DNA of 64,000 nucleotides from Nodosilinea sp. LEGE 07298 (GTDB lineage Bacteria; Cyanobacteriota; Cyanobacteriia; Phormidesmidales; Phormidesmidaceae). The notes beneath the pieces are model-generated. The model did not search any database. It had not been told where the DNA came from and worked only from the letters and a program-made list of their open reading frames with translations. The translations under genes and the position numbers were made by a program. This document shows, one piece after another, positions 12,616-41,678 of the stretch. The stretch is taken from the NCBI RefSeq assembly GCF_015207265.1, contig NZ_JADEXE010000002.1, forward strand, positions 1 through 64,000, given 5' to 3'. Position 1 is the stretch's first letter. Each line of letters opens with the position of its first letter.

Positions 12616-12647
12616 TATCTATGTCTGGAGGTACCGCACTGATTCAC
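12616..12647 (-). promoter_or_regulatory. Regulon promoter motif, copy 4 (trypsin-like protease)
   Basis: On the minus strand: GTGAATCAG, 15 nt, CATAGATA. It lies 40 nt before the ATG at 12575. Confidence 0.78.
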
Positions 12648-12699
12648 TTGGCGGCCCTAAAGTTGCCGATACTGCTGAAGGCCTTACTGAACTGGCTAA

Positions 12700-12731
12700 C
12701 TGGATAAGTTCACTTCACTCAGCCATATATG
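12700..12731 (+). promoter_or_regulatory. Regulon promoter motif, copy 5 (934-aa TPR-CHAT)
   Basis: CTGGATAAG, 15 nt, CATATATG. It lies 29 nt before the ATG at 12761 and 52 bp from the divergent copy 4, so the two genes share a control region. Confidence 0.7.
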
Positions 12732-12760
12732 CTGGTGTCGTTCCCGTCAGAGGGTTGCTT

Positions 12761-19147: not shown

Positions 19148-20341
19148 ATGACTTTCCCCACCTTCCATTCACCCGCTAACCTAAACGCCATGAGTGATTC
19201 CCCAGACCCCATCGATTTTGAGTTTGACCCGCTGCGGGCCACCACCATCACGCTCTCGACCGAGGCCGTAAGCTGGGCGGCGCAAGTGGGCCAACAGGTG
19301 CCTGATGGGGCACAGCAGTGGTCAACGTTTTTGCGAGCCATGGCGCTTCAGGGATTGCGGCAGTGGCTAGAGGCCGGTGCCCTAGATTTGGCCCTTTACT
19401 ACGATCGCCACCAGCCCCCTACCCCCGGCATCAACGGTCGAGTGGGCGACTATCGTCTCTGCCTGGTGGCCCAGGGCAGCCTCAGCGACGACGAGGTAGC
19501 TATTCCAGCCGCTACGGTGCAGGACGAGACTGACTTTGCCCACCTCTATATTTTGGCCGAGGTGCAGGAAGAAGTTGACCAAGTGACCATTTTGGCCGGG
19601 CTGCGGCGCGATCGCCTGCTCGCCCTCCAGCAACAGGGAATGCTAATCGCTCGAAACAACGGCACCTACCGCTTACCCGTTACCGCCTTCGACAGCACTC
19701 CCAACGATATTTTGCTGTACCTCACCTGCCTCAACCCGGTGCAGTTGAGCCAGGCTGCGATCGCACCCGTTTCCTCCCGCGTCCAACCGGTTTCCCAGCG
19801 CGCTTCCATCAACGTCGGTCGCTGGCTACAAAATCAGCTCAATGCCGCAATCGATGGATTGACCTGGATGCTGCTACCGCCCCTGGATCTGGCCAGTGCC
19901 ATTCGCTCCGGTCGCGTTGCAAACCTCAGAGAACCGGCTGAGCAACTGGAAGATATTCTGCGGGAGTTGCAGCCCGCAGGGGTCACAATTCCTCCCACAG
20001 CGCGAGGGGCCTACACCGACCTGCAAAGCACCGGATTCCCCTTCCGCCTTTACGCACTGACCTGGACAATGCCAACCGCCCAGCCGCCAGAGTGGACGCT
20101 CTTTCTGTTTCTGGGCCCGGTACCCGGCGAAACCCTGCCTCCCGGCACGCGGTTGACTGTGCGCGATGCCACCACCGTTCTGGCGGAGCAAACCCTGGCT
20201 CAGGGTAACGAAAACGGCTTTCTCTACGCTCAGGCGATCGGTACCTGGAATGAAGCCTTTACCGCCACCGTCGAGCTGCCCAACGGTAACACTCTCAACT
20301 GGCCTCCGTTTGTGTTTCAGCCTGAGATGTCCCAATCATGA
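19148..20341 (+). CDS. DUF1822 family protein
   Basis: A 397-aa soluble protein of the cyanobacterial DUF1822 family: N-terminal helical part with EAVSWAAQVGQQ, then VGDYRLCLVAQGSLSDDEVAIPAA, and a beta-rich C-terminus (WTLFLFLGPVPGETLPPGTRL). Function unknown. In cyanobacteria these genes commonly lie between sigma-70-like and CHASE2/CHAT genes, as here. The ATG at 19148 has GGAG 8 nt upstream and lies 4 nt after the previous stop; its own stop overlaps the next start (ATGA). A role as an anti-sigma or adaptor protein between the membrane CHAT protein and the sigma-like protein is possible, but only inferred from order. Confidence 0.8.
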   Translation: MTFPTFHSPANLNAMSDSPDPIDFEFDPLRATTITLSTEAVSWAAQVGQQVPDGAQQWSTFLRAMALQGLRQWLEAGALDLALYYDRHQPPTPGINGRVGDYRLCLVAQGSLSDDEVAIPAATVQDETDFAHLYILAEVQEEVDQVTILAGLRRDRLLALQQQGMLIARNNGTYRLPVTAFDSTPNDILLYLTCLNPVQLSQAAIAPVSSRVQPVSQRASINVGRWLQNQLNAAIDGLTWMLLPPLDLASAIRSGRVANLREPAEQLEDILRELQPAGVTIPPTARGAYTDLQSTGFPFRLYALTWTMPTAQPPEWTLFLFLGPVPGETLPPGTRLTVRDATTVLAEQTLAQGNENGFLYAQAIGTWNEAFTATVELPNGNTLNWPPFVFQPEMSQS

Positions 20342-22707: not shown

Positions 22708-23389
22708 ACTCTCTCGGTTCGGCTTGGCAGTAGTTGGGTTAGTGGCGATCGGCAGCGTCAGTCTAGCCAGGGCTGGGTTAGCCCAAGCCCAAACCCCTGA
22801 CCCGCCGGGTTTGGCATCAATGTGGGACTTTTTTCGCCGCGAAGCCGAAGACCGCCGCGCTGGGGATAATGGTGGCCCCAGGGTGCCCGGTCAGTGCGAA
22901 ATCACCATCGCCGATCATCAACTCGTCTGGAACCGCAACCCGGCTTTTGTCTGGACAGGGCTGAAAACTATTGCCCTGCGACAACCTGCCCAAGCGCCCT
23001 TTTGGGAAGAAACGGTAGAAGCAGCCGCACCGGACGGGGTACATCGCGTCCTTTATTCAGAAGCACCGCTGGCCCCTGGCTCCTATGAGCTGGCCTTTTC
23101 TAGCCCGTTGTTGGCCACTGGGATTTTTACGCCTTTTGAAGTGATGGACGATGACACCTATGCCCAAATTGCTACCGAGCTAGAAACCCTGGAGGATTCT
23201 CTAGCGGCTGAGAATGCCGATGTTGAAACTAGCGCCTTGGCCCGAGCCAATTTCTTCGCCGATCGGGGGCTAGCCTCTGATGCGCTGCAAGCATTGTTTG
23301 CGGTGGCTGAGCCTTCGCCCGAGATGCAACAGCGGCAGGTTGAGGTGGTCGAGATGTTTTGTTCCGATGAACAGCCTGAGGCCCCTTGA
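22691..23389 (+). CDS. Secreted protein, loosely DUF928-like
   Basis: A 232-aa exported protein. The signal peptide ends near LAQAQ (about residue 33). The mature part has an Ig/beta-like region (CEITIADHQLVWNRNPAFVWTG, then APLAPGSYELAFSSPLL) and a helical tail. The layout recalls DUF928 proteins that accompany CHASE2/CHAT operons, but the similarity is loose. AAGGAG precedes the ATG, which overlaps the CHASE2 gene by 17 nt, so it is the last gene of that operon. Confidence 0.65.
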   Translation: MVSLHKLSRFGLAVVGLVAIGSVSLARAGLAQAQTPDPPGLASMWDFFRREAEDRRAGDNGGPRVPGQCEITIADHQLVWNRNPAFVWTGLKTIALRQPAQAPFWEETVEAAAPDGVHRVLYSEAPLAPGSYELAFSSPLLATGIFTPFEVMDDDTYAQIATELETLEDSLAAENADVETSALARANFFADRGLASDALQALFAVAEPSPEMQQRQVEVVEMFCSDEQPEAP

Positions 23390-23499
23390 GGCAGAGAGGT
23401 TGTGATGGCTATTCGTCGGTGGCCTGAGGCACTTTAAGCTTTGTCCCTGCACCTTGAACGGATTGTAAAGATATCGTGGGGCAAACCCCTACCAGCCGT

Positions 23500-23565
23500 G
23501 ACGGCCTCCACTACGCCTTCTACGGTCAGCGCATGCCACTGGTGCAACGGCGCAAGGGGATCTAG
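23500..23565 (+). pseudogene. Remnant of a second subtilisin-like gene N-terminus
   Basis: The frame reads DGLHYAFYGQRMPLVQRRKGI then TAG. The intact S8 protease at 28,879 has DDLYYTFYGQRIPLVQRRDRI at residues 30-50. Fifteen of 21 residues are identical, so this is a short leftover of a duplicated copy. Confidence 0.75.
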
Positions 23566-23613
23566 AGTTACTGCCGCTCAGGCAGCGAGAGTCCGCTAAA
23601 AATTTGCCCCAAA

Positions 23614-23645
23614 GTGAATCAGTCTCTTCTAGCCAGAGATATATG
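23614..23645 (+). promoter_or_regulatory. Regulon promoter motif, copy 9 (1675-aa TPR-CHAT)
   Basis: GTGAATCAG, 15 nt, GATATATG. It lies 34 nt before the ATG at 23680. Confidence 0.75.
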
Positions 23646-23679
23646 CTGATGACACCTTAACTATCTCCAACTGCTCACA

Positions 23680-26600
23680 ATGCGATATTCAACAAAGTGG
23701 CTTGGTCTAGTGGTACTGACGGCATTGATGGTGCCAATCACGTCGGCAGCGGGATTTTCAGAAGAACTTCCCCCTCAAGCGCCAGGCCAGATCAGGGCTA
23801 ACTTGCTGTCTGCCAGCCAGAATATTGAACCGGGTCGGCTGCTTCAAGAGGGGCAGGCTTTGTACTATCGAGGCAAATTTGCCGAGGCTCTGGAGGTGCT
23901 TCAGGTGGCTCTGGCTGAGTACCGGGCGCTAGGGGATAGGCCGGAGCGTTACCGGGGTGAGGTGGCAAGTCTGACCGCGATCGCAGAAGTCTACCTCTGG
24001 CAGAATCGCCATGACGAAGCTTTAGACCTGGCTCAACAAGCCCTGGAGATCGCCCGTACTCACCAAAACGATTGGGGAGAAGTCTGGGCCTTAAATATTG
24101 CGGGAGTGGCCCAACGCAACCTAGGCCAACTAGAGGAAGCTGAGGCTAGCTATCAGCAAGCCCTGGAGCTGGGTTCAACTTTAGAGGATAAGTTTCCCTT
24201 GAACGTGAGTCGGCTCAATCTGGGTGCAGTCTATATGGCGCAGGGCAACATCGCCGCCGCCCGAGAGCAGTTTCAACAGGCGCTGGCCTACCTGGAGCAG
24301 CCCTCATCTTCACCAGAACTGGATCTAAGGCGAAAGTACTACCAGGCCCTGACGCTGCAATGGGCGGGGCTGGGAGCTTTAAGAGCCGAGGAATTCGATC
24401 AAGCCCTGAGCTTTTTTGAGCAATCGCTTACCCTTGGCCGCGCCATTAGCAATTTGGCAGTGGAAGCGGGAACGTTATTGTCCAAAGGGCAGTTGTATCA
24501 GCAGCGATCAAAGGAGGCACTAGCCCTAGAAGCCTATCAGCAGGCATTGTCGCTATACCAGACCCTAGGACAGCCTTTGAGGATTGGTTCCACGTCCTTT
24601 AGAATCGGCAGGCTTTATACCGAACAAGACCAGGACGCACAGGCCGTAGAAGCCTATCAACAGTCGGCCAACGCCTTTGAGCAGGCGGAAGATTACGACC
24701 AGCAAGCTCACAGTTTGCACTGGCTGGGCATTACCTATCAGAGTCTTGAGCAATATCCCCAGGCGCTGGCGGCCTATCAGCAGGCGCTAGAGTTATACCG
24801 CTCAGAAGAGAATCGTTGGTACGAGGCCGATGTGCTGAATAGCATGGGGCAAGTCTATTACTTTCAGGAAAAAACCGTTGAAGCAGAGGCCGCCTATCGG
24901 CAGGGGTTGACCATTGCCCAGCAGATTTCCGACCGCCTCAAGGAAGCTCATGCTCTGTTTGGCCTAGGCCATACCCTCATCCAACAGGGAAATGCTTTAC
25001 GGGATACCGAAGCCTATGAGGAAAGTCGGTTAGTTTACCAACAAAGTATTGAACTGTTTCAAGCAGCCCGAATCATTGCATTAGAACTGGAAGATATTCA
25101 GCAAGAGCAGAATGCAATCGAGGGCATCATCGGTAGCTACTTGAATCTAGCTTGGAGTTATGGCTATCAGAATAACTATGTCGAAGAAGTAGTGGCTTCT
25201 CAACGAACATTAGACCTCTTAGAGACCTATCGAGAGCGTTTGCCAGAAACAGCGTTTTTAGAACGTAAGATGGTGGCTCTAAATAATTTAGGAATAGCTC
25301 ATTCCAATGCTGCTCAATCTACAGAATCTATTCAGGCCTCTGGAACCAGTGCGGCCATTGCAGAACAACTTGGAAATTTCGATTTTCAAGTACGACAACT
25401 ACTTTCAGTTGCTCAGGAATACGCACGTCTGGATCAATATGAACAGGCGCTATTAATAGGGCAGCAGGCCCTGAAAATTGCCCACGATAAACTCCCTCAG
25501 GCTGAAGAATTGGAACTTTCCCTGCTGCTGGCCATAGGCAAAATTTATGATGATACTCGACAGTATGATGTGGCATTGGAGTATTACCAGCAGGCTGGGT
25601 TGCTGGCTCAGGAATTGGACAACCCCAGTATAGGAAATGTCGTCTTCAACAATATTGGTGCAATCCATGCTACTCGGGGTCAATATTTGCAGGCCCTGGA
25701 GCCGTTACAACAAGCTTGGGAGATTGACCAATCGGCGATTCAGCAGTTGCAAGCTGAGGGGCTAGAAGCGGTTGAACGCCTGTGTGGGGAAAGTGCAGCC
25801 AGCTTGGGGGTACGGGGGCAGCAAAATTGCCTGAGTATTTTCCAGCATCGCAATTCAGTCACTCTGAACAATCTGGCGCTGGTCTACCACGGGCTGGGTC
25901 GTTATTCCGAGGCCATCGAAGTCTATCAGCAGGTTTTGGAGTTTCATCGAGGCATTAGCGATCGCCACAATGAGATGACAGCCTTAAACAATTTGGGAAC
26001 AGTTTATGCCAGTATCGGAGAGTACACCCAAGCAATCGAGGTCTATCAGCAATCTTTGCAGACTGCTAGAGACATTAATAGCCGTTCCCAAGAAGCCACG
26101 GCATTGAACAACTTAGGCATGGTTTATGAACAGCAGGGGCGCTATCCCGAGGCGCTGGAACTGTTTCAAACAGGCTTAGCGATCACTCAAGATATTGGCG
26201 ATCCCTCTACAGAAGCATCTCTGCTAGCTCACATTGGCGGTGTTTATAAAGATCAAGGCAAGCTGACAGAAGCCTTAGACCTTTATCAAACGTCGTTGGA
26301 TATTCGCCAGCAACTGGGCGAAGCGGACAACACAAACCTGAACAACATGGCTCTGATTCACCATGAGCAGGGCCATAATGAAAAAGCTCTAGAGTACCTC
26401 TATCAGGCTCTAGATATTACCAGAACCACGGGCGATCGCACTGCCGAAGCCTCTGCTTTAGGCAACATTGCGGCTCTCTATGCCACTCAAGCAGACTACG
26501 CTAAAGCTCTAGAAGTACAACAGCATGCGGCCAGCATTCGTCAGGAGTTGGGAGGTGGCCCTAACCAGGTTTCTGCCTTGGCAGGTTTGGGGCAAATCTA

Positions 26601-28707
26601 TGTTCAATTAGGGCAGTATGACCAGGCCCTGACTTACTATCAGGAGGCTCTCCAGATCAGCCAGGAAGTTGGAGAAAAAGCCGCAGAAATGTCTGCCCTG
26701 AGCTGGCTAGGTAAGATTTACCAGGCTCAAAGCCAGTATGAACTGGCCTTAGAACACTTGCAAAAGGCCCTGCGACTAGCTCAAGACATGGGGGATGTCG
26801 CTAACGAAGCTCGGGGGTTGGTCGCGATTGGCCGACTTCACCAGCTGAATGGGCGATTTGACGACACAATTGAGCTGCTGGAGCAAGCGTTGAAGACCCA
26901 GCGCCAAATCGGAGTTCGCTTCGATAAGGGCAATACCCTGACCCATCTGGGTCTGGCCTATGGCAGCCGGGGAGAAATCTCGAAAGCCGTGGAAATTTTG
27001 CAGCAGGCCATGGCGATTCACCAGGAAACCGGGGAACTGGCCAAAGAGGCGGAGACCCTGGCTAACCTAGGGCAGGTGTTGAAAGCAACTCAGCCCGAAT
27101 TGGCCATCGTGTTTTATAAACAAGCCGTCAACCTGCGGGAGGGCATTCGCGGTAGTTTGCGGGAGTTGTCCCGTGATTTGCAGCAGTCCTACACCGACAG
27201 TGTTGCTGACACCTACCGCGACCTGGCCGACCTGCTGCTGGAACAGGGACGTATTCCTGAAGCCCAGCAGGTGCTCGACTTGTTAAAACTGGAAGAACTG
27301 CGGGAGTTTACCCATACTACCCGTGCCACTTGGACGGGTAGCAAACTGGCTTATACCAACTTAGAGGAACCTGTCATTGAGGCCCACTTCAGCCTGATCG
27401 CCTTTGGCCAGAGACTTTATGAATGCCAGCAGACTAACTGCAATCAGCTCGGTGGTCTATTGGATCAGCAGGATCAGCTGATCCAGGCCTATAACCAACA
27501 GGTGAGAGCCTTTGAAGCCACCGTGCGGGACAACCGCTATGACGACCCACTGTTCCAAGATCCTGACAACCTCAGTGGAGCGGCTCAAGATTTACTGGCC
27601 GCTAACCCCAACTCGGTGCTGATTTATCCCTTCATCACCGAAGACAAACTGTGGCTGCTGTGGGCTGCTGGCAGCGCCGTCGGTACCGTCCAGGTCGAGG
27701 TTTCACAGGGGGAACTGGCCAGGACTGTGCAGCGCTTTGGTGAGTTGCTCACCTCTGGGGGAAACTTGGCCGAGCTGCAGGCTGCCAGCCAGCAACTCTA
27801 CGGTTGGATCGTGGAACCCCTGGAAGCCGAACTACAGAGGAACAACATCCAAAAGCTGATTTTCGTCAATGACCGCATCACTCGCTACATTCCTATGGCG
27901 GCCCTGTTCGATGGGGAGCAGTTTCTAATTGAACGCTACACCCTTTCCACCGTCATCTCACCAGCACTCACCGACACTGAAGACCGCCTTACCGGCCTTG
28001 ACGAGTCCCATGTGCTGGGGTTAGGGCTGAGCCAGCCTATCTCTGGCTTCACCCCTCTACCTGCAGTTGAGCCTGAGCTGGATAACATCATCCTCAGCGA
28101 TGCCACCGACACCATCGGCATTTATCCCGGTCAAATATATCTAAATGAAGCCTTTACCCTAGATCAGTTGAAAGATAACGTGCTGAACCATCGCGTCCTG
28201 CACATTGCCAGCCATGCCGCCTTTGTGCCCGGTCGTAAAGAGGACTCGTTTATTCTCCTGGGGGATGGGCAAAAACTACGGGTGACCGACATTGACGATA
28301 TGAGCGGACGCCTGAGCAACCTGCACATGGTGGTGCTCTCCGCCTGCCAAACCGCTTTAGGTGCCGAAGCCGGAGACGGCACCGAAATTGCCGGAATTAG
28401 CTCCTACTTCCTCAAAACAGGCCGGGCCAAAACCGTCATCGCTTCCCTCTGGGCCGTTAACGACAGCAGCACCAGCCTGCTGATGCAGCGCTTCTACGAA
28501 CTGCTGGCCTCTGGCGAACTGACCAAAGCGGAAGCCCTACGCCAGGCCCAACTCAGTTTGCTCTACGACGAAGATAGCGAAACTCGCCTTGCTGCTAGCC
28601 GCGCCACCATCGAATTGGAATCGCGGCCCAGTCAACCCATCTCAGACACCGGGTTTCAGCATCCCTATCACTGGGCACCCTTCATCTTGATTGGCAATGG
28701 CTTATAG
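23680..28707 (+). CDS. Giant secreted TPR-CHAT protein (1675 aa)
   Basis: A signal peptide (WLGLVVLTALMVPITSAAG) is followed by some two dozen TPR units (LNNLGxVYxxxGxYxQAIEVYQQSL and variants, about residues 45-1160), a helical linker, and a C-terminal CHAT domain (about 1360-1675). Catalytic residues are His1512 (LHIASHAAF) and Cys1556 (LSACQTA). The last residues, HPYHWAPFILIGNGL, nearly equal those of the 934-aa protein, so the two are paralogues with different repeat numbers. The TPR superhelix probably selects a protein partner for the CHAT peptidase outside the cytoplasm. Confidence 0.9.
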   Translation: MRYSTKWLGLVVLTALMVPITSAAGFSEELPPQAPGQIRANLLSASQNIEPGRLLQEGQALYYRGKFAEALEVLQVALAEYRALGDRPERYRGEVASLTAIAEVYLWQNRHDEALDLAQQALEIARTHQNDWGEVWALNIAGVAQRNLGQLEEAEASYQQALELGSTLEDKFPLNVSRLNLGAVYMAQGNIAAAREQFQQALAYLEQPSSSPELDLRRKYYQALTLQWAGLGALRAEEFDQALSFFEQSLTLGRAISNLAVEAGTLLSKGQLYQQRSKEALALEAYQQALSLYQTLGQPLRIGSTSFRIGRLYTEQDQDAQAVEAYQQSANAFEQAEDYDQQAHSLHWLGITYQSLEQYPQALAAYQQALELYRSEENRWYEADVLNSMGQVYYFQEKTVEAEAAYRQGLTIAQQISDRLKEAHALFGLGHTLIQQGNALRDTEAYEESRLVYQQSIELFQAARIIALELEDIQQEQNAIEGIIGSYLNLAWSYGYQNNYVEEVVASQRTLDLLETYRERLPETAFLERKMVALNNLGIAHSNAAQSTESIQASGTSAAIAEQLGNFDFQVRQLLSVAQEYARLDQYEQALLIGQQALKIAHDKLPQAEELELSLLLAIGKIYDDTRQYDVALEYYQQAGLLAQELDNPSIGNVVFNNIGAIHATRGQYLQALEPLQQAWEIDQSAIQQLQAEGLEAVERLCGESAASLGVRGQQNCLSIFQHRNSVTLNNLALVYHGLGRYSEAIEVYQQVLEFHRGISDRHNEMTALNNLGTVYASIGEYTQAIEVYQQSLQTARDINSRSQEATALNNLGMVYEQQGRYPEALELFQTGLAITQDIGDPSTEASLLAHIGGVYKDQGKLTEALDLYQTSLDIRQQLGEADNTNLNNMALIHHEQGHNEKALEYLYQALDITRTTGDRTAEASALGNIAALYATQADYAKALEVQQHAASIRQELGGGPNQVSALAGLGQIYVQLGQYDQALTYYQEALQISQEVGEKAAEMSALSWLGKIYQAQSQYELALEHLQKALRLAQDMGDVANEARGLVAIGRLHQLNGRFDDTIELLEQALKTQRQIGVRFDKGNTLTHLGLAYGSRGEISKAVEILQQAMAIHQETGELAKEAETLANLGQVLKATQPELAIVFYKQAVNLREGIRGSLRELSRDLQQSYTDSVADTYRDLADLLLEQGRIPEAQQVLDLLKLEELREFTHTTRATWTGSKLAYTNLEEPVIEAHFSLIAFGQRLYECQQTNCNQLGGLLDQQDQLIQAYNQQVRAFEATVRDNRYDDPLFQDPDNLSGAAQDLLAANPNSVLIYPFITEDKLWLLWAAGSAVGTVQVEVSQGELARTVQRFGELLTSGGNLAELQAASQQLYGWIVEPLEAELQRNNIQKLIFVNDRITRYIPMAALFDGEQFLIERYTLSTVISPALTDTEDRLTGLDESHVLGLGLSQPISGFTPLPAVEPELDNIILSDATDTIGIYPGQIYLNEAFTLDQLKDNVLNHRVLHIASHAAFVPGRKEDSFILLGDGQKLRVTDIDDMSGRLSNLHMVVLSACQTALGAEAGDGTEIAGISSYFLKTGRAKTVIASLWAVNDSSTSLLMQRFYELLASGELTKAEALRQAQLSLLYDEDSETRLAASRATIELESRPSQPISDTGFQHPYHWAPFILIGNGL

Positions 28708-31854: not shown

Positions 31855-33090
31855 TTGACCTTTGAGCAGCAATCAACCGCGATCGCCCGGTTAGCCCTAC
31901 ACCAGTCCCAGCGGTGCCAGGCCATCCCGACGCTGTCTGTTCTGCGGGGAAAAGTCATTGCCGCTCGTCAGTTGTGGCTCCTGTGGTCAGATCAGACCCA
32001 TCGCCAGACGGGTGTGGGAGTTTACACTTCAATTGCTGCCCTCCTAGAAACCTGGCTCACCGCAATTGCCCAACACGACAACCTGCGATCGCGGATTCTG
32101 CAAAGCCTTGCCGCTCTGACCCATCGCCCCGAAGCGGAACTAACCGCCTTCTTAGCCAGTACCAGCGACTACCAGCGTCAGCTGTTTTGGCAGCAGCTAG
32201 CGCCCCTTTCAGAGGATGCCGACCAGCTCCGAGCCATCCTCACCTGGCTCCCTGACTCCCCAGGCCTAGAGCCACAAACCAAGCATTTGGCGTCTGAGGA
32301 CTCGTCTACGGTGTTGGCAAGCTTTGCTGCTGTATCGCGGCTATTTCCGCAGTCTGTGGTGCCGGGGCTATTGGTGCTGCTGCCCGAGGATAACTGGGGC
32401 GAGGCTGCCCTCACCGCCCTTGCCCAGTTGGTAGAGGCGGTGCCACAGATTCCGGTGGCTCTGGCGCTAACCGCAGATCAGGGTCAAGGCTTACTGAATG
32501 AGCTGCCCGAATCGAGAGCTAAGGCAATGTTGCGCGGTGGCCTGATCGATGTCCCCTCTCCCGAACCGGGCAACATTAGGCAGTGGTTGAGCACTCACGG
32601 CCTAGACGACGAGCAGCTTCAGCCCCTGCTTCACCTAGCCGAAACCCACGGCACTACGCCAGAAGCCTTGGATGCCGCACTGACTCTCCTTAATCAGGCT
32701 CACCAGCCCGCGACAGCAGAGGCAGCAGAGGTTTATCGCAGTCAGGCGGAGTGGTTTTTGTTTCAGTATCTAGAGGCCAAACCGACGACCATGGGGCGAT
32801 TTCAGGTGAATGCGCGGTTAGATATAGACTTTGGCGGTCGCCCTATGGAGGTGGACTTTCTCGATGCAGCGGCCAAAATTGTGATCGAATTAGATGGCCA
32901 CTATCACTTCCAGTCCCTCGATAACTACCGCCGCGATCGCCGCAAAGATCGGCTTTTGCAGCAGCAGGGGTTTCTGGTGCTGCGCTTCCTCTCAGAAGAC
33001 GTGGTCAGTGACCTCGAAGGCATTCTCGATGCCATTGACCAGGCCATCGCCACTCACTCCCCCCTAAACCCCCACCCTTCGGAGGCATGA
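31855..33090 (+). CDS. DUF559-type PD-(D/E)XK nuclease with helical N-terminus
   Basis: A 411-aa protein. Residues about 1-290 are helical, with a P-loop-less ATPase-like stretch (VPGLLVLLPEDNWGEAALTALAQ). The C-terminal 120 residues match the DUF559/Vsr-like nuclease core: MEVDFLD, IVIELDGHYHF and QGFLVLRFLSEDV, giving Glu and Asp metal ligands. No ATG is available; the frame opens right after a TAA and starts with TTG at 31855, so the N-terminus may be wrong or truncated. The stop at 33090 overlaps the next gene. First gene of a three-gene cassette with a double-ATPase, in which it is the probable nuclease effector. Confidence 0.7.
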   Translation: MTFEQQSTAIARLALHQSQRCQAIPTLSVLRGKVIAARQLWLLWSDQTHRQTGVGVYTSIAALLETWLTAIAQHDNLRSRILQSLAALTHRPEAELTAFLASTSDYQRQLFWQQLAPLSEDADQLRAILTWLPDSPGLEPQTKHLASEDSSTVLASFAAVSRLFPQSVVPGLLVLLPEDNWGEAALTALAQLVEAVPQIPVALALTADQGQGLLNELPESRAKAMLRGGLIDVPSPEPGNIRQWLSTHGLDDEQLQPLLHLAETHGTTPEALDAALTLLNQAHQPATAEAAEVYRSQAEWFLFQYLEAKPTTMGRFQVNARLDIDFGGRPMEVDFLDAAAKIVIELDGHYHFQSLDNYRRDRRKDRLLQQQGFLVLRFLSEDVVSDLEGILDAIDQAIATHSPLNPHPSEA

Positions 33091-34145
33091 TGCTTTCACT
33101 GCGACCCATTCCCCTATCAGACTTGCTCTTGAGCCGCCTACTTTTCGCCGATACCAACGGTATGACCATCAGCGAGTTGAAAGTTGCCCTCAAGGCGATC
33201 GCTGGCAGCGAGCTATCGAACACCGCCTATACAGAGCAAATCGAAACCACCCTCACCAACCTCAGCGAGCAAGACTACACCCAGCCTGTCAGCTCGTCCC
33301 GCCACCAACTGAGCGGTCGCGGGCGTCAGCACATCCTTAACGGCCTCAGACTCAAGACCCTGCCCCCCAGACTCCAGTGGAAAACCCTGAAGAACACCGA
33401 CTGGATTGCCCACGCCCTCAACCTCCCCGCCCTTTCAACCGAGACCCGTAGACGGCTAGCGGAGGCAGATGGACTGCGAGCGGCCATCCTCCAGCAGGGC
33501 TTTGACCTGTCCATTGCTCCCTTCAGCACCCTCACCCAGGCTCGCAATGCCCTACTGTGGCAGCACCTGTGTAACCCCAAAACTGCTGAAAAGCTCCAGA
33601 CCCAGCTCCCCGACCTGCAACAGCACGCATTTAACCAGGGCACTGTCATGGCCGCACTGCTGAATGATTTGCTTCAAGCCCCCAAACCCCTGCCCTGGGA
33701 CAAGGCGCTATCACAGCTGGTGGCCAGGGTCGCTCAAGCCAAGCGCACCACTCCTGATGAACTGCGCACCGCGATTTTGCGTCAAGCCCTGACCAGCACA
33801 GAGCCGGTACCCCAAAAACCTGATACCTCTAACAAGAATGACCTGGCCACCTTATCGGATGAGGAGTTTGCTGAGCTTACCCTCAATGCGGCTAAAGCAA
33901 CTCAAGATGGCCGGTTAGGAGACTCCAAAGTATTTATCTCGCGGGTCTGGGCAACCTTACAGCAACAGCACCCAGACCTAAAGCTCAGTCTAGAAGGCTT
34001 CAAACAGCGTTTGGTAAACGCTAATCAGCAGCGAAGACTCGATCTAAGTCGGGCTGACCTAGCCTATGCCTTGGATGCCAAAGATGTATCGGCCTCTGAA
34101 ATTAATCACCTAAACAGTACGTTCCATTTTATTCGTCTTGACTAA
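33087..34145 (+). CDS. Conserved cassette protein of unknown function (352 aa)
   Basis: No family recognised with confidence. The N-terminus (about 5-75) looks like a winged-helix (LLLSRLLFADTNGMTISELKVALKAI). The C-terminal 90 residues form a second compact domain (GDSKVFISRVWATLQ...FKQRLVNANQQRRLDLSRADL...ATFHFIRLD-like end) that I recall from proteins encoded next to large ATPases in defence loci. It overlaps the nuclease gene by 4 nt and ends 11 nt before the ATPase gene, so the three are one operon. Possible adaptor or DNA-binding subunit. Confidence 0.6.
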   Translation: MMLSLRPIPLSDLLLSRLLFADTNGMTISELKVALKAIAGSELSNTAYTEQIETTLTNLSEQDYTQPVSSSRHQLSGRGRQHILNGLRLKTLPPRLQWKTLKNTDWIAHALNLPALSTETRRRLAEADGLRAAILQQGFDLSIAPFSTLTQARNALLWQHLCNPKTAEKLQTQLPDLQQHAFNQGTVMAALLNDLLQAPKPLPWDKALSQLVARVAQAKRTTPDELRTAILRQALTSTEPVPQKPDTSNKNDLATLSDEEFAELTLNAAKATQDGRLGDSKVFISRVWATLQQQHPDLKLSLEGFKQRLVNANQQRRLDLSRADLAYALDAKDVSASEINHLNSTFHFIRLD

Positions 34146-34156
34146 AGCCAATATCT

Positions 34157-37100
34157 ATGACTACTGATCCGAGATTTGACGCCTTTTGTTCTCACCAGGG
34201 GCTTGATGTTTTTCATGCCGTCACCCACCAGCACCAAATCTGGCAGCCCGACCTATACGACGTTGACACCATTCATCCAGAAGCTCGCTTAGCCTACGAA
34301 CGGTTGCTGAATCGAGCCGATAGTTCTGCCGCTAGCGATTCAGGCCGCATCCTATTGCTGTTGGGAGAGTCGGGGGCGGGTAAAACTCATTTGATGCGGT
34401 TTTTTCGCAATCAAACCCACGAACAACAGAAGGGCTTCTTTAGCTACATGCAGATGACCTCTGCGGTGTCGAACTATGCTCGGTATGTGCTGAGAAACAC
34501 CATCGATTCTTTCGATAAGCCCTACTACGAACCCTTTGGGCCAAAAACTGGACTGATTGAGTTTTCTAATGCCCTAGCCGAAAGCTCAGGCGTCGTTACG
34601 CCTAATGAACTTACTCTCCTGAAAGAAGACGATCTATCCCAGGAAGAGCTAATCGATTTAATCTACCCAATCGCAGATCGTGTGATTGCCCTGCCACAGT
34701 TCAATGGGGTTGATATCGACGTTATTCGGGCGCTGCTATACCTGCAACCCGGCCAGCCTGCTATCAGCGCTAAAGTCCTTAAACTATTACGGTGCGAACC
34801 CTTAACCCCCTACGACAGTAGAGTTTTAGGTGGGGTAGTTGGCCGCGATCACGATGATGATCCCCTGCGGATGCTACGGTCTTTTGCCTTGTTGATTCAG
34901 GCGGTTACCGGCGGGGCCTTTGTGGTTTGCCTAGACCAGCTTGAAGATATTCACAGTATGGATGAAGCTGGGCAGCGTTTCCGGCGAGCTGTTCAGACTA
35001 TCGTTACGCTAGCTGAGATTCCCAACGTCATCGTCGTGCTCTCCTGCCTAGAGAGCTTTTACGATCTGTTGAAACAACACCTGCCAAAATCCCATCTTGA
35101 TCGCCTAGAGCTAGATCCAACCCCCGTAAGCCTTAGTGCCCGGCGTTCAGAAGATGAAGTCAGGCAAATTCTCTCGCGGCGACTGCAAAATCTTTACGAA
35201 TTGGCAGAAATATCGGTCAACAGTGACGAAGCGTTATATCCCTTCCCTGACTCTATCGCTGAGACGCTAGCGGGTCAGACAACTCGCGATGTCTTGGAAT
35301 GGTGTCGCCGCCAGCGAGAAAAAAGCATCACCACAGGACAATTACCCGACATAGATATTACTGAGCCACCACCCAAAATTGATCCGCCGCCTTCGCCAGA
35401 CTATGAGCTGAGTCAACATTGGAATGATCACCTGGCGGGGAGCTTTGAGCCTCCCGACGATGATCGCGACCTACTTCACCTCATTGGCAACAGCATCGAG
35501 CGCTGTGGGCAAGAACTAAGCCATGGTTGCCACTTCACTACCCAGATCGATGGGGAGTACATGACCGCAGATCTGCACCTGGAGCCAAATAACTCTAGGG
35601 AATCTTTACGGCTGGGTTTATGTCAGAAGTCTTCAAAGGGTGGTGCTCTAGCCAAACAAATTCGGGAGCTTCAGCAAAACGCTGGCGATCGTATCCCCGT
35701 CGCCCTACGCACCACTGAATTCCCTAGCAATCCTCGAACAAAAATCGCCCAGCAGATTGGTGAGTTTCTCAGTCAGGGAGGTCGTCGCGCCCAGGTGGCC
35801 GATTCTGACTGGCGCACCATGCTGGCGATTCAGAGCTTCGAGCAGCAGTACGGCGATCGCCCCGAGTACCCCGCCTGGCTCCAGGTCGAACAGCCCCTGT
35901 CTCAGCTGCCCTCGCTCCAGCGCATCTTGAATTTGGCCAACCTGAAAATTGCCGCCGGTTCCGCATCCAGCGGCCAGCCTCAGCCAACCCAACCAACGCC
36001 CCAGCCAACCGCCACAAAGCTTGGGGATAATGCTCCTGAAGACGCGCCAAAACCAATTCCCGACCTTGAGGCTGAACCGACTTTACCTGAGCCAGCCTCA
36101 GCCATCCCCCTGGGCCAAACTCGCTCCGCAGTGCCGACTCTGGTGGATCTACCTCGGGAAGCGCTAGTGCGCCACGCCGCATTTCTGGGGGGCTCGGGCA
36201 GCGGCAAAACCACCCTGGCCCTGACCTTGATCGAACAACTGCTGCTACGGGGCGTGCCCGCCATTCTGCTTGATCGCAAAGGCGATCTGTGCAGCTACGC
36301 CAACCCCGAGGCTTGGGAACAGCCCACCGACAATCCTCGGCTGATGGCCTACCGGCAACTGCTGCGCGACCACATTGATGTTGCGGTCTACACCCCTGGC
36401 ACCCTGGGCGACGCCGGGCGACCGCTGAGCATTGCCATTACCCCGCCGGGTCTGGGGCAACTTCCCAGCGCTGAGCGGCAGCAAATTGCCAACTACTGCG
36501 CCGCCGCCCTGGGCGGCATTATGGGCTATAAAGCGGCGGGGCTGGATAAAACCCGGATGGCGGTTTTGGGGCAGGCGATCGCCGTGCTCAGCACCCTCCA
36601 AACCGATAACCCTCTGAGCATCGACCGGCTAATTGCCTTCATTGCCGAGCAGGATCCATTGTTGGTGAATGCGATCGGGGTGCTAGACCCGAAGCACTGC
36701 AAGAAGCTGGCGGAAGACCTCCAGACCCTCAGCCTGATGGCCGGGCAACTCTTCAATCCTCAGTGTGAACAACTCTCCACCGAGCAGCTGTTGGCCCCGT
36801 CTCACCCCCAGAAGACCCGGCTATCGGTAATCAATCTGGGCAGCCTAGGCGACAACGCCAGCATTCTGTTTTGGGTATCGCAGTTTTTGCTCAACCTCAA
36901 CCGCTATGCCCAGCGGCATCCCTCGGGCCAGCTTCAGGCGGTGGTGTTGTTTGATGAGGCCGATCTGTACCTGCCCGCCCAGGGCAAACCCTCCACCAAA
37001 GAGCCGATGGAAAGCCTGCTCAAGCGAGCCCGCTCCGCCGGGCTGGGTATTTTGCTTGCTACCCAAAGCCCCGGCGACCTGGACTACAAGTGTAGAGATC

Positions 37101-37342
37101 AAATCTCGTCCTGGTTTGTCGGCAAGGTGAAGGAAAACACCGCCCTCAACAAGCTGAAGCCTATGCTCAGCGAGGCCAAGACAGATGTGACCAGCAAGCT
37201 GGCCAACCAACAGGTCGGCGAGTTCTTCGCGATCCGTGCTGGGGAGGTCACCAGCTTGAAGGCTAACCTGTCATTGGTTCGGGCTGAACAGGTACCGCTG
37301 GAAATGGTGCAAGCCCTAGCGGCTAGTTCTGTAAATCAGTAG
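34157..37342 (+). CDS. Double P-loop ATPase: STAND-like N-terminus, nuclease-like middle, HerA/FtsK-like C-terminus
   Basis: A 1061-aa protein. The N-terminal ATPase (about 40-400) has Walker A GESGAGKT (70-77) and Walker B-like FVVCLDQLED. A middle segment (about 435-560, DRDLLHLIGNSIERCGQELS... GEYMTADLHLE) looks like a degenerate restriction-nuclease fold. A Pro/Gln-rich linker (about 600-650) leads to a HerA/VirB4-type ATPase (about 660-1050) with Walker A GGSGSGKTTL near 677 and Walker B VVLFDEADLYLP near 930. HerA-like motors with nucleases are common in anti-phage systems. The fusion of two ATPases in one chain is unusual. A strong hairpin follows the gene. Confidence 0.75.
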   Translation: MTTDPRFDAFCSHQGLDVFHAVTHQHQIWQPDLYDVDTIHPEARLAYERLLNRADSSAASDSGRILLLLGESGAGKTHLMRFFRNQTHEQQKGFFSYMQMTSAVSNYARYVLRNTIDSFDKPYYEPFGPKTGLIEFSNALAESSGVVTPNELTLLKEDDLSQEELIDLIYPIADRVIALPQFNGVDIDVIRALLYLQPGQPAISAKVLKLLRCEPLTPYDSRVLGGVVGRDHDDDPLRMLRSFALLIQAVTGGAFVVCLDQLEDIHSMDEAGQRFRRAVQTIVTLAEIPNVIVVLSCLESFYDLLKQHLPKSHLDRLELDPTPVSLSARRSEDEVRQILSRRLQNLYELAEISVNSDEALYPFPDSIAETLAGQTTRDVLEWCRRQREKSITTGQLPDIDITEPPPKIDPPPSPDYELSQHWNDHLAGSFEPPDDDRDLLHLIGNSIERCGQELSHGCHFTTQIDGEYMTADLHLEPNNSRESLRLGLCQKSSKGGALAKQIRELQQNAGDRIPVALRTTEFPSNPRTKIAQQIGEFLSQGGRRAQVADSDWRTMLAIQSFEQQYGDRPEYPAWLQVEQPLSQLPSLQRILNLANLKIAAGSASSGQPQPTQPTPQPTATKLGDNAPEDAPKPIPDLEAEPTLPEPASAIPLGQTRSAVPTLVDLPREALVRHAAFLGGSGSGKTTLALTLIEQLLLRGVPAILLDRKGDLCSYANPEAWEQPTDNPRLMAYRQLLRDHIDVAVYTPGTLGDAGRPLSIAITPPGLGQLPSAERQQIANYCAAALGGIMGYKAAGLDKTRMAVLGQAIAVLSTLQTDNPLSIDRLIAFIAEQDPLLVNAIGVLDPKHCKKLAEDLQTLSLMAGQLFNPQCEQLSTEQLLAPSHPQKTRLSVINLGSLGDNASILFWVSQFLLNLNRYAQRHPSGQLQAVVLFDEADLYLPAQGKPSTKEPMESLLKRARSAGLGILLATQSPGDLDYKCRDQISSWFVGKVKENTALNKLKPMLSEAKTDVTSKLANQQVGEFFAIRAGEVTSLKANLSLVRAEQVPLEMVQALAASSVNQ

Positions 37343-37515: not shown

Positions 37516-37564
37516 AACTTCGTTCGGGACGAAGGGGCCGTGGGTTCGAATCCCGCCATCCCGA
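37516..37564 (+). pseudogene. 3' half of a tRNA-Pro(CGG) gene
   Basis: From the anticodon arm onward the sequence is a clean tRNA-Pro(CGG): anticodon stem CTTCG/CGAAG around loop TTCGGGA (anticodon CGG), variable loop, T-arm GTGGG-TTCGAAT-CCCGC, acceptor strand CATCCCG and discriminator A. The D-arm and 5' acceptor strand (expected CGGGATG) are absent and replaced by unrelated sequence. This is the pattern left by integration at a tRNA gene. It also contains the target matched by the nearby delocalised CRISPR spacer. Confidence 0.8.
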
Positions 37565-37599
37565 TTCTTCTAAAACCTACTGCGGAAGCGCCTTGTAGC

Positions 37600-37662
37600 T
37601 GCACGTTCCGGAATTATTTGTCATCGTTCCGGAATTAGTGTCGGCGTTCCGGAATTAGTGTC
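37600..37662. mobile_element. Type V-K CAST transposon end (CRISPR-proximal end) with three TnsB-type repeats
   Basis: Starting at a possible TGCAC terminus there are three direct repeats, GTTCCGGAATTATTTGTC at 37605-37622 and GTTCCGGAATTAGTGTC at 37626-37642 and 37646-37662, with a period of 20-21 bp. Size, spacing and the xATTAxTGTC tail resemble the TnsB-binding repeats of ShCAST ends. The end lies 35 bp after the tRNA fragment. Confidence 0.75.
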
Positions 37663-37680: not shown

Positions 37681-37716
37681 TAATCGAGATGGCGGGATTC
37701 GTTTCAGTCCATGCTC
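37681..37716 (-). ncRNA. Delocalised homing crRNA (degenerate repeat plus tRNA-matching spacer)
   Basis: On the minus strand a truncated repeat (CATGGACTGAAAC, ending at 37701) is followed by spacer GAATCCCGCCATCTCGATTA. The tRNA-Pro fragment reads the same at 37547-37566 except one T/C change, and is preceded by GGTT, fitting the NGTN PAM of Cas12k. V-K CASTs are known to home to tRNA genes with such off-array spacers. Confidence 0.75.
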
Positions 37717-37810: not shown

Positions 37811-38216
37811 GATTAAATCCTTATGGGCTGTGGAAGCCCAATGCGACGGCTCGGTTTCGCCTGGGTCGCCCTCGCGGCGGTAGTCGTTTCAATCCTCATG
37901 GGCTGTAGAAGCCCAGTGCGACTTTAACTAAAGTGTGTATAGCTCGCCGCGAGGGAATTGTTTCAATCCTCATGGGCTGTAGAAGCCCAGTGCGACTAAC
38001 CTCAGCGCCGCTCCACAGGCTAGGCCCAGCGAGGTTTCAATCCTCATGGGCTGTAGAAGCCCAGTGCGACCCTACATCCCGCTACCTCAGCTAGGGGGCA
38101 AGACCAAGTTTCAATCCTCATGGGCTGTAGAAGCCCAGTGCGACAGAGGTTGCTGGCTTGATCTTTACTCCTGCTGGTTGTTTCAATCCTCATGGGCTGT
38201 AGAAGCCCAGTGCGAC
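37811..38216 (-). CRISPR. CRISPR array, six repeats and five spacers
   Basis: The 37-nt repeats on the minus strand begin GTCGCACTGGGC, contain a 6-bp hairpin (TGGGCT/AGCCCA) and end GAGGATTGAAAC. They sit at 37811-37847 (degenerate, five mismatches, the last repeat in the transcription sense), 37886-37922, 37960-37996, 38034-38070, 38108-38144 and 38180-38216. Spacers are 38, 37, 37, 37 and 35 nt. The direction is set by the ATTGAAAC 3' end, the degenerate terminal repeat and the upstream tracrRNA and cas12k on the same strand. Confidence 0.93.
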
Positions 38217-38400
38217 AGCACCCACTCAAAACTCTTGGTTCGCGGGCCATTTGGCCCTTTCGATCGCGAACCTGCCTTTTTACGACCTGATTAACTGGCC
38301 AGACCACGGCGTACAGCATCGAAATGCCAGCGGGTAAGGCCTTCAGGCTGCGCGAACCTGCCAGGAAAAAGTCCTGCGCTTGGGGTTCGCGGAGGCTAAG
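38217..38400 (-). promoter_or_regulatory. CRISPR leader with GGTTCGCG repeats
   Basis: Upstream of the first repeat on the minus strand the motif GGTTCGCG (or its complement CGCGAACC) occurs four times, around 38237, 38267, 38353 and 38384. This style of leader is one I associate with cyanobacterial type I/III arrays. Confidence 0.5.
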
Positions 38401-38410
38401 ATATCGATAT

Positions 38411-38756
38411 GGGTGCATGGATTACTCCTCGGTCGGAGTTGTTTTGGCAGCCAACACTACAGTAAGTCCGTCCTCTCTTGCTGGGTGCGCCCCTATCCTG
38501 TTGCACGGTGCCCGATTCCAGACGTTCACTTACAACAGCAGCATCGGAGTGGTCAGTAGCCAGCACTGGTCTCTAAAAATATGATCCTTGATTTCTCGCT
38601 GTCCAAAACCCTTGGGCAGCAAGCGTTCTAACAAGCATCTTACTTTAGCAGTCCAGTGCCAGCCTGCCAGGGCCAGAAAGTAAGGCTGCTATCTCGCAGT
38701 CAAACAAGCCCTCATTTTTCACAGAACAGAGACTTTCGCATGTCCTGCGGCGCTTT
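38411..38756 (-). ncRNA. Cas12k tracrRNA
   Basis: The minus strand carries, in order, the blocks I remember from ShCAST tracrRNA: AGCGCCGCA at the 5' end, AAATGAGGG, GTTTGACTG, CTTTCTGGCCCTGG, GATGCTGCTG, CAGGATAGGGGCGC, CCCAGCAA, TACTGTAGTG and a final hairpin ACTCC/GGAGT followed by the anti-repeat AATCCATG. AATCC pairs with GGATT in the array repeat. Two insertions relative to ShCAST lengthen it: about 100 nt (38546-38663) and about 27 nt before CAGGATAGG. It lies between cas12k and the array, as in other V-K systems. Confidence 0.85.
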
Positions 38757-39115
38757 TAATACAAGTATCCTACTCTACGAATAAGTTCTTGTACAGTAGG
38801 GCTTGATAGGCATGGCAAACGCATACTTTTTTGAAGAGCCTCAACCCCTTTTCCAATAGGGCCTACAGTGTTTGCGTTGAAATCAACTATTGATTCCATT
38901 CTTAATAAACAGTCGCTGTAAACCAGGAAACTCGTTCTGGCCATACACTACCCAAGTCTTTGATAGCAAAGTGCCAGAAGCTCAAAGCCTTATCAGTCAG
39001 TAGATTGAGAGTTTTCATTTAATATGCGTTTGCCCTGGCTTGATAGGGGTTTTCGCTAGGAATTTCAGGACGGCGACACTAACTTAGCTAGCACATCAGG
39101 CTATAGATACTGGGG
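38757..39115. other. Gap between tracrRNA and cas12k
   Basis: No gene or structure recognised. The tracrRNA promoter should lie at its left side on the minus strand. Confidence 0.5.
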
Positions 39116-40972
39116 CTAAGTAGAAAGTGCTAAACGCTTTTCATAAGCTAGCAGGCCAAGGTCTTTGGCTTTTTCTTGGGGCGAACCAGAACATCCTTGC
39201 CGAGCCGTTTCGACGGTGATCCGGCACTGTCCAGCCTTAGAGGCGATGGCGTCTTGCAGACGACCGTAGCTCCACTGGTGAACTTGAGTGCGGTAGGCTT
39301 TGGCGTACTGTCTTTGGCCATCTACAAAATCGGGCACCTTCTCTGCCGCTCGTTGTTTGACCTCTGCTTCAACAATTTCGCGAATGTGGGCAAGGTCTGG
39401 TAGGACAATGCTGCCTGCTTGATAGGCTTGGGCAAGTTCAACGATTGCCTTAGCCAGCAGCCGATCAACATGCTTACCTAGGTCAGACTCTGGGGACATG
39501 CGCTTGCCGCCTTTGCGGCGCTGCCGGTGCCCCTGGTGAACTACTTTTACCCGTTCAGATCGGGCACGCTGTAGGAGCGGATAGTGCTCGCCCAGCAACT
39601 GTTTGGTAGATCGGTAGACCAGCACCTCTTGGGTTATGGCATTGATGACAGCAACGGTGGCAGGCTTCTCTGGCCCCATGCTGACCCCAACCAGAATGTC
39701 TGATCTAGGTTGGTAAAGGGGACGGCTGGGGCGAGGGTAAGGGGTTGGTAGCCGCTCAATGGTGGATTCTAGCCGTCCCACGTAGACCTGTTGGGTTTTA
39801 GATAGCGATTCTTTAGTCTGCATGGATGCCAGTTTTGTGGCGGTTTTAGCGGCTTTCTCGGCCATCACAAGTTGGGTGCCTTCTTGAGTCCACAGGGCGG
39901 TGTCTACGGTGCAAGACAGGTTGAGGTGGTAGCGGTTCCATGGCTCAGTCTCATCTTGATGCTTTTTGGACGGAATCCAAGACAGCCGAGCTGATCGCAG
40001 GGTAAACAAGCCCGCTGAATGGCGATCTCCTCCTGCACTTTTAGTTTCTTGATCTGCCAAAAACCGCTCGAACCAGTGCAGGTGAGGTTTGTCGCAGTAC
40101 ACCTTAAACCAATGCTGACTTGTGCCCTGGCCCTGAAAGCTGACCAGCAAACGGCCTTGCTCATCTCGCGACCAGACAAGCGTTTTGCCGGTTTCGTAAA
40201 TAATGGGGAAAGGAAAAGTGGCGGGTTCTCTGGTGAGGGATTGGTGCCAGGTGCTGTAGCTCTCATCATCTAGAGGGGGCGTGTGGATACTCTGGATGAG
40301 TGCTTCCGTCTGGATATGGCCAGTCAAATCGCGTCCTTTCGGAAGGCTGGCCTGAAGCTGAGTTTCTAGCCTCTGAATAGAAATTTCGGCTTTGCGGTAG
40401 CGCTTGGCCAGTGTGTCTAGGTTTTCGATTGCAGGGTCGAGCTTGGCACCGCGCTTGAGCAAATAGGCCAAGGCATTTTGACGAAGTGCTTTTTTGGCCT
40501 GCCCATACTCCTTAAATAGGTGCTTGAAGGGGTCAGTCGCTTCGACAGTTTTAAGGATGCGGATTGCCGTGTTCTGCAATTTCTCAAGGCTGCATCCGGC
40601 TTGTTCAGCCAGGGTAGAGTCGGGTTGTAGAATGCCGAGCCAGCGGCGTTTGCCTTCTAGCCGCCACTGCTTACGACGTTGCAGGCTGAGCCAGCTTTTG
40701 AAGGTGTAAGTGACCTGCTTTTGCGCTGAGATGTAGAACCAGACAGGCTGATTACTAAATCTAGGATCAGTTTTTAGTCCATTAACCAGTTTTATAACGA
40801 CTTCATTAGGCAACTTGCCTCGCTGCTGCCACCTTACAAAATCAGGATATCCTGGCACTCGGTGAAGAACTTCATTGACCAAGGGGGTATTACGTTCGGC
40901 CATTAACGTCCAAATGGCTTGCCGAGCCTCAGCTGAAGCGATCAAGCGGCACCGGACAGTTTTATATGCCAT
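39116..40972 (-). CDS. cas12k: Cas12k, RNA-guided targeting effector of type V-K CAST
   Basis: A 618-aa protein matching Cas12k along its length: N-terminal LMAERNTPLVNEVL and FVRWQQRGKLP, central FERFLADQETK and HSAGLFTLRSARL, and the C-terminal RuvC-like part with LVGVSMGPEKPATVAVI, LGKHVDRLLAKAIVELAQAYQAGSIVLPDL and WSYGRLQDAIASKA. Cas12k has a catalytically inactive RuvC and, with tracrRNA and crRNA, directs TnsC/TnsB transposition without cutting. Length fits the family (about 620-650 aa) and no frameshift is seen, so targeting may still function. It is divergent from cvkR with a CvkR operator in between. Confidence 0.95.
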   Translation of the reverse strand: MAYKTVRCRLIASAEARQAIWTLMAERNTPLVNEVLHRVPGYPDFVRWQQRGKLPNEVVIKLVNGLKTDPRFSNQPVWFYISAQKQVTYTFKSWLSLQRRKQWRLEGKRRWLGILQPDSTLAEQAGCSLEKLQNTAIRILKTVEATDPFKHLFKEYGQAKKALRQNALAYLLKRGAKLDPAIENLDTLAKRYRKAEISIQRLETQLQASLPKGRDLTGHIQTEALIQSIHTPPLDDESYSTWHQSLTREPATFPFPIIYETGKTLVWSRDEQGRLLVSFQGQGTSQHWFKVYCDKPHLHWFERFLADQETKSAGGDRHSAGLFTLRSARLSWIPSKKHQDETEPWNRYHLNLSCTVDTALWTQEGTQLVMAEKAAKTATKLASMQTKESLSKTQQVYVGRLESTIERLPTPYPRPSRPLYQPRSDILVGVSMGPEKPATVAVINAITQEVLVYRSTKQLLGEHYPLLQRARSERVKVVHQGHRQRRKGGKRMSPESDLGKHVDRLLAKAIVELAQAYQAGSIVLPDLAHIREIVEAEVKQRAAEKVPDFVDGQRQYAKAYRTQVHQWSYGRLQDAIASKAGQCRITVETARQGCSGSPQEKAKDLGLLAYEKRLALST

Positions 40973-40996: not shown

Positions 40997-41039
40997 TATA
41001 GAGTAACTTCAGTTTTTGTCTTTCCGGTAGGATGTGTCT

Positions 41040-41678
41040 ATGGATTCATCTTTGATAGACCAACGCTTTTTTACCAGTGCCGAGGCAGCTCAGATCACGC
41101 GCTGCACTGCTCGGCAGCTTCAGTATTGGCGGCAAAAAGATGTAGTGGTGCCTACCATCAACGCCACCGGCACCGGACGCACGGTGTACTACTCTTTGTC
41201 AGATCTATTGCAACTGACCACGATGGAGTATTTGATGTCTCTAGGTTTGACTTATGAGGTCTGCCGTCAATACCTAGCGACTCTCAAAGCGTCAGATCCA
41301 AACGTTTTCAAGCATCCTGAGCAGTACAGTGTTACCAAGCGCTTCATGCTTTTGCAGAGAGAAGCCCAGGGGAGCTTGGAACTCTGCCCCTTCGCAAAGC
41401 AAGAGGCAGTTGATGCAGTTGCCAATGGAAGGGCGGTGATTCCCGTTTGGCCAGAAATTTTGCTCAAGCGGCTTGAGGATAGACTGCTGGTATTTGGGAT
41501 CAAGGTCTCTTTGCTAAAACCTGATGTGCAGCCAAAACCCATCCAGGAAAAGCCAGCCACGTCGCGGCCTCATAGCTATGCCGACGCTGCGGTAGGCAAA
41601 GAGCATCTATTCCTCGGAGAGACAGCTCTCATGATTGAGCCAGGCAAGTCTACAGAGGTAGAAGACAACAGCCAGTAG
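41040..41678 (+). CDS. cvkR: MerR-type repressor CvkR of the V-K CAST
   Basis: A 212-aa protein with an N-terminal MerR winged helix (FFTSAEAAQITRCTARQLQYWRQKDVVVPTI, then GRTVYYSLSDLLQLTTMEYLMSLG). It lacks the Cys pattern of metal-sensing MerR proteins and has a family-specific C-terminus. In Anabaena, CvkR encoded divergently from cas12k represses it, and the arrangement here is the same. ATG at 41040 with AGGA 7 nt upstream; a GTG at 41034 is also in frame. Confidence 0.88.
   Translation: MDSSLIDQRFFTSAEAAQITRCTARQLQYWRQKDVVVPTINATGTGRTVYYSLSDLLQLTTMEYLMSLGLTYEVCRQYLATLKASDPNVFKHPEQYSVTKRFMLLQREAQGSLELCPFAKQEAVDAVANGRAVIPVWPEILLKRLEDRLLVFGIKVSLLKPDVQPKPIQEKPATSRPHSYADAAVGKEHLFLGETALMIEPGKSTEVEDNSQ

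Follow-up and report, generated by a model that had tools for sequence, protein, structure and literature searches.

Our analysis identifies, with high confidence, a homing crRNA of a V-K CAST whose guide carries a wobble mismatch that predates the present insertion, whose element has decayed, and which is most likely a relic. The window, i.e., the whole 64,000-nucleotide stretch of Nodosilinea sp. LEGE 07298 DNA that was analyzed, is part of contig C293, which has 69,214 bases; the genome comprises 7.25 Mb in 617 contigs. Minus-strand positions 37682-37714 would constitute the homing crRNA gene, made up of a truncated repeat and a spacer of about 17 to 20 nt. Guided by this crRNA, Cas12k would have been led to tRNA-Pro(CGG), at its 3' end, and the left end of the transposon was then presumably inserted at a distance of 53 bp from the PAM. 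The one mismatch in the guide is probably an rU-dG wobble, tolerated and already present in the lineage when this insertion took place. The element itself appears to have decayed through loss of tnsB-tnsC-tniQ and of the right end and through entry of a mobile palindrome into the tracrRNA, and an integrase-type island may have separated it from the working tRNA gene. Because of this decay, the guide most likely no longer drives transposition from the present copy.

The homing guide, its target, and the transposon end

The relevant features of the window are as follows.

37518..37564, plus strand: 3' fragment of tRNA-Pro(CGG), from the anticodon stem to the 3' end, with the protospacer; identical to the intact tRNA-Pro on contig C299
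37543..37546, plus strand: PAM GGTT (NGTN), from sequence; the same PAM is found in the four closest relatives
37547..37566, plus strand: protospacer of the homing guide, matching the spacer at 19/20 positions
37600..37662, plus strand: V-K CAST left end with TGCACG terminus; the same end type is found in G008, G009, G022, G023, G031, and C226
37682..37701, minus strand: homing (anchor) spacer CGAATCCCGCCATCTCGATT, from sequence comparison
37702..37714, minus strand: truncated, delocalized repeat GCATGGACTGAAA, from comparison with the array repeat and with relatives
37813..38217, minus strand: CRISPR array of five 37-nt repeats and one degenerate terminal repeat
38218..38800, minus strand: tracrRNA region, strongly conserved in relatives except for an insert
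38557..38663, no strand assigned: palindromic mobile repeat of 107 bp, MITE-like, inside the tracrRNA, from comparison with relatives
39116..40972, minus strand: cas12k, 618 aa, intact (NF038191, 766 bits against a cut-off of 150; PDB Cas12k structures, E 6e-172)
41034..41678, plus strand: MerR-type regulator in the CvkR position (PF13411, MerR_1; position as in PMC9938897)
42594..45201, plus strand: two IS transposases, IS701-like and IS4-like, to the right of the regulator

Read in reverse complement, the segment 37682-37701 matches 37547-37566 at 19 of 20 bases, which bears out the preliminary description of a spacer matching the tRNA-Pro 3' end. When both strands of the whole 69-kb contig are scanned, the spacer itself (20/20) and the tRNA-Pro site (19/20) are the only segments to agree with the spacer at more than 14 of 20 positions, and in 576 trials with shuffled flanks no guide/PAM/target match of this quality arose. 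On the minus strand, the spacer CGAATCCCGCCATCTCGATT immediately follows the repeat GCATGGACTGAAA, which is shortened relative to the 37-nt array repeat GTCGCACTGGGCTTCTACAGCCCATGAGGATTGAAAC and stands away from the array. Because the C paired with 37701 is common to the repeat and the target, the guide is 19 or 20 nt long, depending on where the repeat ends; the 20-nt match extends two bases beyond the tRNA 3' end. The likely tracrRNA partner of the truncated repeat is AATCCATGC (38415-38423). Read from the sequences, the predicted pairing of GCATGGACTGAAA with AATCCATGC comprises 8 of 9 pairs in the window and 9 of 9 in the relative G009.

As had been proposed, GGTT at 37543-37546 fits the NGTN motif. 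The transposon end TGCACGTTCCGGAATTA starts at 37600, 53 bp from the PAM, and is followed by two further 20-bp repeats of the TnsB-site type; TnsB-type repeats GTTCCGGAATTAnTGTC stand at 37605, 37626, and 37646. An uninterrupted copy of the site on C299, in the same genome, is identical to 37518-37599 and diverges exactly at 37600, so that the left end is placed to the base. The earlier statement that the end lies at the usual distance past the PAM holds, and the end itself is supported by this break point and by a second copy on C226. That orphan copy of TGCACGTTCCGGAATTA (C226:9520-9582; L017) is a solo transposon end. Its GGTT PAM, 66 bp away, belongs to a tRNA-Arg(CCG) gene, and neither CRISPR nor cas12k follows in the approximately 900 bases that remain of the contig.

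Cas12k, an array of 37-nt repeats, a tracrRNA region between cas12k and the array, and a MerR-type gene reversed relative to cas12k and beside its start together place the element among the V-K CASTs. The Cas12k protein is homologous to ShCas12k over its whole length, and the order at the left end is the same as in ShCAST (Tn7747). The end ATTGAAAC of the array repeat resembles several type I and III repeats; an assignment of the array to one of these types, suggested by that resemblance, was dropped after the identification of Cas12k.

Homing crRNAs, or anchor spacers, of V-K elements go back to Saito et al. (2021), as cited in PMC9938897, and are a subject of the review PMC11406308. In the published cyanobacterial layout, a tRNA faces the left end, a truncated repeat (R*) precedes an anchor spacer of usually 17 nt, the PAM is GTN, the left end lies 46 to 82 nt from the PAM, and the regulator is reversed beside cas12k (PMC9938897). 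The arrangement in the window is thus already known, having been described in 2021 to 2023, and shares with the published elements the truncated repeat apart from the array, a spacer of about 17 nt, the PAM, the tRNA target facing the element, the end distance, and the regulator position. Unlike them, it is missing the transposase genes and the right end, it has an interrupted tracrRNA, its target is only a 3' fragment of a tRNA gene, and its guide carries a wobble mismatch at position 15.

Relatives and a survey of V-K loci

The closest Cas12k relatives all belong to the same genus: G009 (82%), G022 (77-86%), G023 (69%), and G008 (66%). Each has the same end type and the truncated repeat GCATGGA(C/T)TGAAA, and the spacer of each matches the T-loop/acceptor end of the adjacent tRNA, which is tRNA-Pro in G009 and G008 and tRNA-Arg in G022 and G023. 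Their left ends lie 44 bp (G009), 63 bp (G008), 54 bp (G022), and 65 bp (G023) past the PAM. The G009 spacer is identical to that of the window over 20 nt and the G008 spacer over its first 19. Unlike the element of the window, G022 and G023 keep the tnsB-tnsC-tniQ region, which G009 lacks on its contig. Between the window and G009, cas12k has a dN/dS of 0.083, a value that reflects past selection on cas12k and says nothing about whether that selection outlasted the loss of the transposase.

The survey comprised 149 loci downstream of cas12k, drawn from searches of 386 phylum genomes and 218 from one additional family, together with the relatives; a homing match was counted where a guide follows TGAAA and matches the flank beside an NGTN PAM. 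Such matches, mostly to tRNA genes, were present at 124 of the 149 V-K loci, 77 of them perfect over 17 nt, 39 with one mismatch, and 8 with two. The delocalized homing spacer of the preliminary description is conserved in the family, and the tRNA matches in related CASTs, on which that description had made its reading depend, do exist. Locus L153, where an automatic match follows a full-length repeat, was left out of the counts, and L154 and L162, seen only in a wider first scan, were rejected as likely chance matches.

The same genome carries a second V-K CAST (C33:13796-17037; L014), whose cas12k contains one in-frame TAG. Its 20-nt spacer matches the adjacent tRNA-His perfectly, and its end lies 59 bp past GGTT. 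An end of the same type as that of the C33 element occurs at C210:8623-11414 (L013), together with tnsB and a tnsC that is truncated close to where the contig stops. The two end types differ in sequence: the window has GTTCCGGAATTAnTGTC repeats and the terminus TG(C/T)ACG, whereas the second CAST and other V-K loci have TGTACAGTGACA. The TnsB that goes with the window's end type (from G023) is 45% identical to that of the other type.

Probable decay of the element beside a truncated tRNA-Pro gene

The preliminary description had missed the missing transposase genes, the missing right end, and the interruption of the tracrRNA. On the side of the IS elements, to the right of the regulator, one would look for cargo, tniQ-tnsC-tnsB, and the right end. 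What lies beyond the IS elements on C293 are sulfate permeases and other genes, and the contig is continuous from the left end through cas12k and for another 28 kb. Queries for TnsB, TnsC, and the TniQ region found no match on the 69-kb contig, while the same queries found the G022 operon (positive control); right-end motifs had no match on C293 either. The tnsB operon of G023 and G022 adjoins a right end that carries related repeats, at about 15 to 27 kb from cas12k. The sole TnsB of the genome is on C210 and adjoins the other end type, TGTACAGTGAC. The tRNA-Pro element of G009 likewise has no tnsB on its 170-kb contig. Because two defining features were looked for and found wanting, namely, tnsB/tnsC/tniQ and a right end on the contig to accompany the left one, we file the element as an incomplete member rather than as a complete V-K CAST.

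The 107-bp palindrome is missing from the tracrRNA of G009, G022, and G023 and folds strongly (z -6). Two further dispersed copies, 84% and 77% identical, stand in unrelated flanks elsewhere in the genome, and for this reason we regard it as a small mobile repeat. The copies (window 38557-38663, C186:5096-5193, and C286:6532-6632) have CACTGG/CCAGTG ends. Taken together, the homing guide is probably a leftover in a decayed V-K element.

The target, too, has a history. The identity to the C299 tRNA-Pro does not extend left of 37518, where the tRNA sequence breaks off on the 5' side of the anticodon stem. The gene is thus truncated, which is why ARAGORN detected no tRNA in the window; Rfam at gathering thresholds likewise gave no match there. 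The earlier claim that the guide is aimed at a tRNA-Pro 3' end holds as far as the match is concerned, but what stands there is only a 3' fragment, and the working gene is elsewhere. On C299, the intact tRNA-Pro(CGG) is followed about 140 bp on by a phage-type integrase (PF00589). Because the identity between the two sites ends exactly at the transposon end, the insertion site probably also continued like C299, and the original target would probably have had the integrase-side flank of an island. The break left of 37518 resembles an island's far attachment site. The simplest reading would be that an integrase-type island entered the tRNA-Pro gene and parted the CAST from the working copy; C299 and C293 are unjoined in the assembly.

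At the end of the putative island, positions 31855-37342 hold, in a row, a gene with a DUF559-type nuclease domain, a gene for a 352-aa unknown protein, and a gene for a 1,061-aa AAA/HerA-like protein. PADLOC reports mad8/HerA matches in this row, a possible defense operon.

The guide-target mismatch and alternative readings

The mismatch is at guide position 15 counted from the PAM, where the guide has T over a target C. The same T15 guide faces C15 of tRNA-Pro in the window, G009, and G008, whose insertion distances (53, 44, and 63 bp) and flanks differ; they are apparently three independent insertions made with a mismatched guide. Because all three share T15, the change would predate the insertion in the window and evidently did not stop insertion. 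A C-to-T change in the guide yields an rU-dG wobble on the target strand. We classed as wobble compatible the mismatches with guide U over target C or guide G over target A. Among the 124 V-K loci, collapsed by target group to 37 changes, transition mismatches were wobble compatible in a ratio of 20:5 (two-sided P 0.004), and T over C outnumbered A over G by 15:3 (P 0.009), where an AT mutation bias would predict equality. The last 20 loci to be retrieved had four transitions, three of them T over C and none A over G. Position 15 was the commonest mismatch position, found in 8 of 21 target groups (P 0.012, as a maximum over 17 positions), an excess that was not replicated in the 20-locus validation set, where no mismatch fell at position 15. 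The wobble and position-15 tests were made after looking at the data, on events that were not corrected for the tree, and we treat them as leads. As such, the wobble bias suggests tolerance rather than self-protection. More broadly, and tentatively, homing guides might tolerate, or even be selected to keep, wobble mismatches, preferably at position 15, with one guide serving the genes of differing hosts; we find this generalization doubtful at present.

Across all 149 V-K loci, no guide-target mismatch occurred at guide positions 1, 2, 5, and 8. At one tRNA target that contains HIP1, differing spacer changes all break GCGATCGC, in 12 elements (L116, L143, L236, L240, L248, L252, L146, L119, L221, L230, L161, and L165); another subgroup (validation loci L276, L277, L278, and L281) has it intact. 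A universal avoidance of HIP1 in guides, considered on the first 129 loci and one tRNA target, was given up in view of this subgroup.

Two other accounts of the mismatch deserve consideration. Weaker pairing at position 15 may have been selected, either tuning homing or stopping the guide from acting on its own attachment site. In its favor are the excess at position 15, with positions 16 and 17 mostly matching, and the retention of the mismatch in three insertions of the window's lineage. That retention also tells against the form given to the idea in the preliminary description, in which the mismatch prevents renewed targeting of the element's own site, since the mismatch did not arise after the insertion in the window. 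The proposal is, moreover, post hoc, position 15 is spared in the validation set, and a mismatch is dispensable, since 77 of 124 loci have none over their first 17 nt; we consider selection quite unlikely. Alternatively, the guide may record another host, in which the spacer was acquired from a tRNA-Pro ending in ATCTCGA, its U still reading the present C. The wobble bias of retained mismatches fits such a history, as a guide could outlive a C/T change in its target. Yet the T-variant tRNA, searched as GGTTCGAATCCCGCCATCTCGA, occurs in 0 of the 386 phylum genomes, and every tRNA-Pro end among the retrieved loci has CATCCCGAT, with C at the mismatch position. These counts likewise tell against the earlier suggestion that the mismatch reflects tRNA variation in the family, and they leave an origin in another host unlikely. 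A tolerated wobble, older than the present insertion, is the reading we prefer.

As for the state of the element, it might still be whole and mobile, its homing crRNA in use, with tnsB-tnsC-tniQ and the right end merely unassembled beside it. The cas12k frame is intact and conserved, with past purifying selection, as would also fit retained function; the tracrRNA is otherwise conserved, and the self-folding palindrome might be tolerated as an extra hairpin; and an assembly of 617 contigs leaves gaps that could hide tnsB or the right end. Against this stand the 28 unbroken kilobases beyond cas12k without TnsB, TnsC, TniQ, or a right end, the position of tnsB in G023 and G022, at about 15 to 27 kb from cas12k, the different end type beside the sole TnsB of the genome, and the interrupted tracrRNA. 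We therefore regard a whole element as highly improbable and hold to a decayed one. The reading of the site as an inverted repeat that arose by chance, close to an array belonging to some other CRISPR type and with no link to a CAST, can draw on the type I- and III-like end of the array repeat; set against Cas12k, the V-K end repeats, the conserved truncated repeat, the matching spacers of relatives, and the absence of comparable matches in 576 shuffles, it has practically no likelihood.

Taken alone, the window adds a further V-K homing spacer, and the element that holds it is broken. Its value is that of a case history: it joins decay beside a tRNA apparently taken over by a genomic island, a left end fixed to the base through an uninterrupted copy in the same genome, and a natural guide-target mismatch retained across several insertions. 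If the wobble bias is true, it would show which guide mismatches Cas12k accepts in real transposition and would bear on off-target prediction and on host change by V-K elements.

Elsewhere in the window, positions 6047-15565 and 20338-28707 hold a cluster in which the encoded proteins are caspase-like (Peptidase_C14) or of the CHAT-TPR kind; one of them has CHASE2. At 60287-62647, a 786-aa protein combines a NACHT N-terminal helical domain (NNH2), with no Pfam match to the NACHT ATPase, and HEAT repeats.
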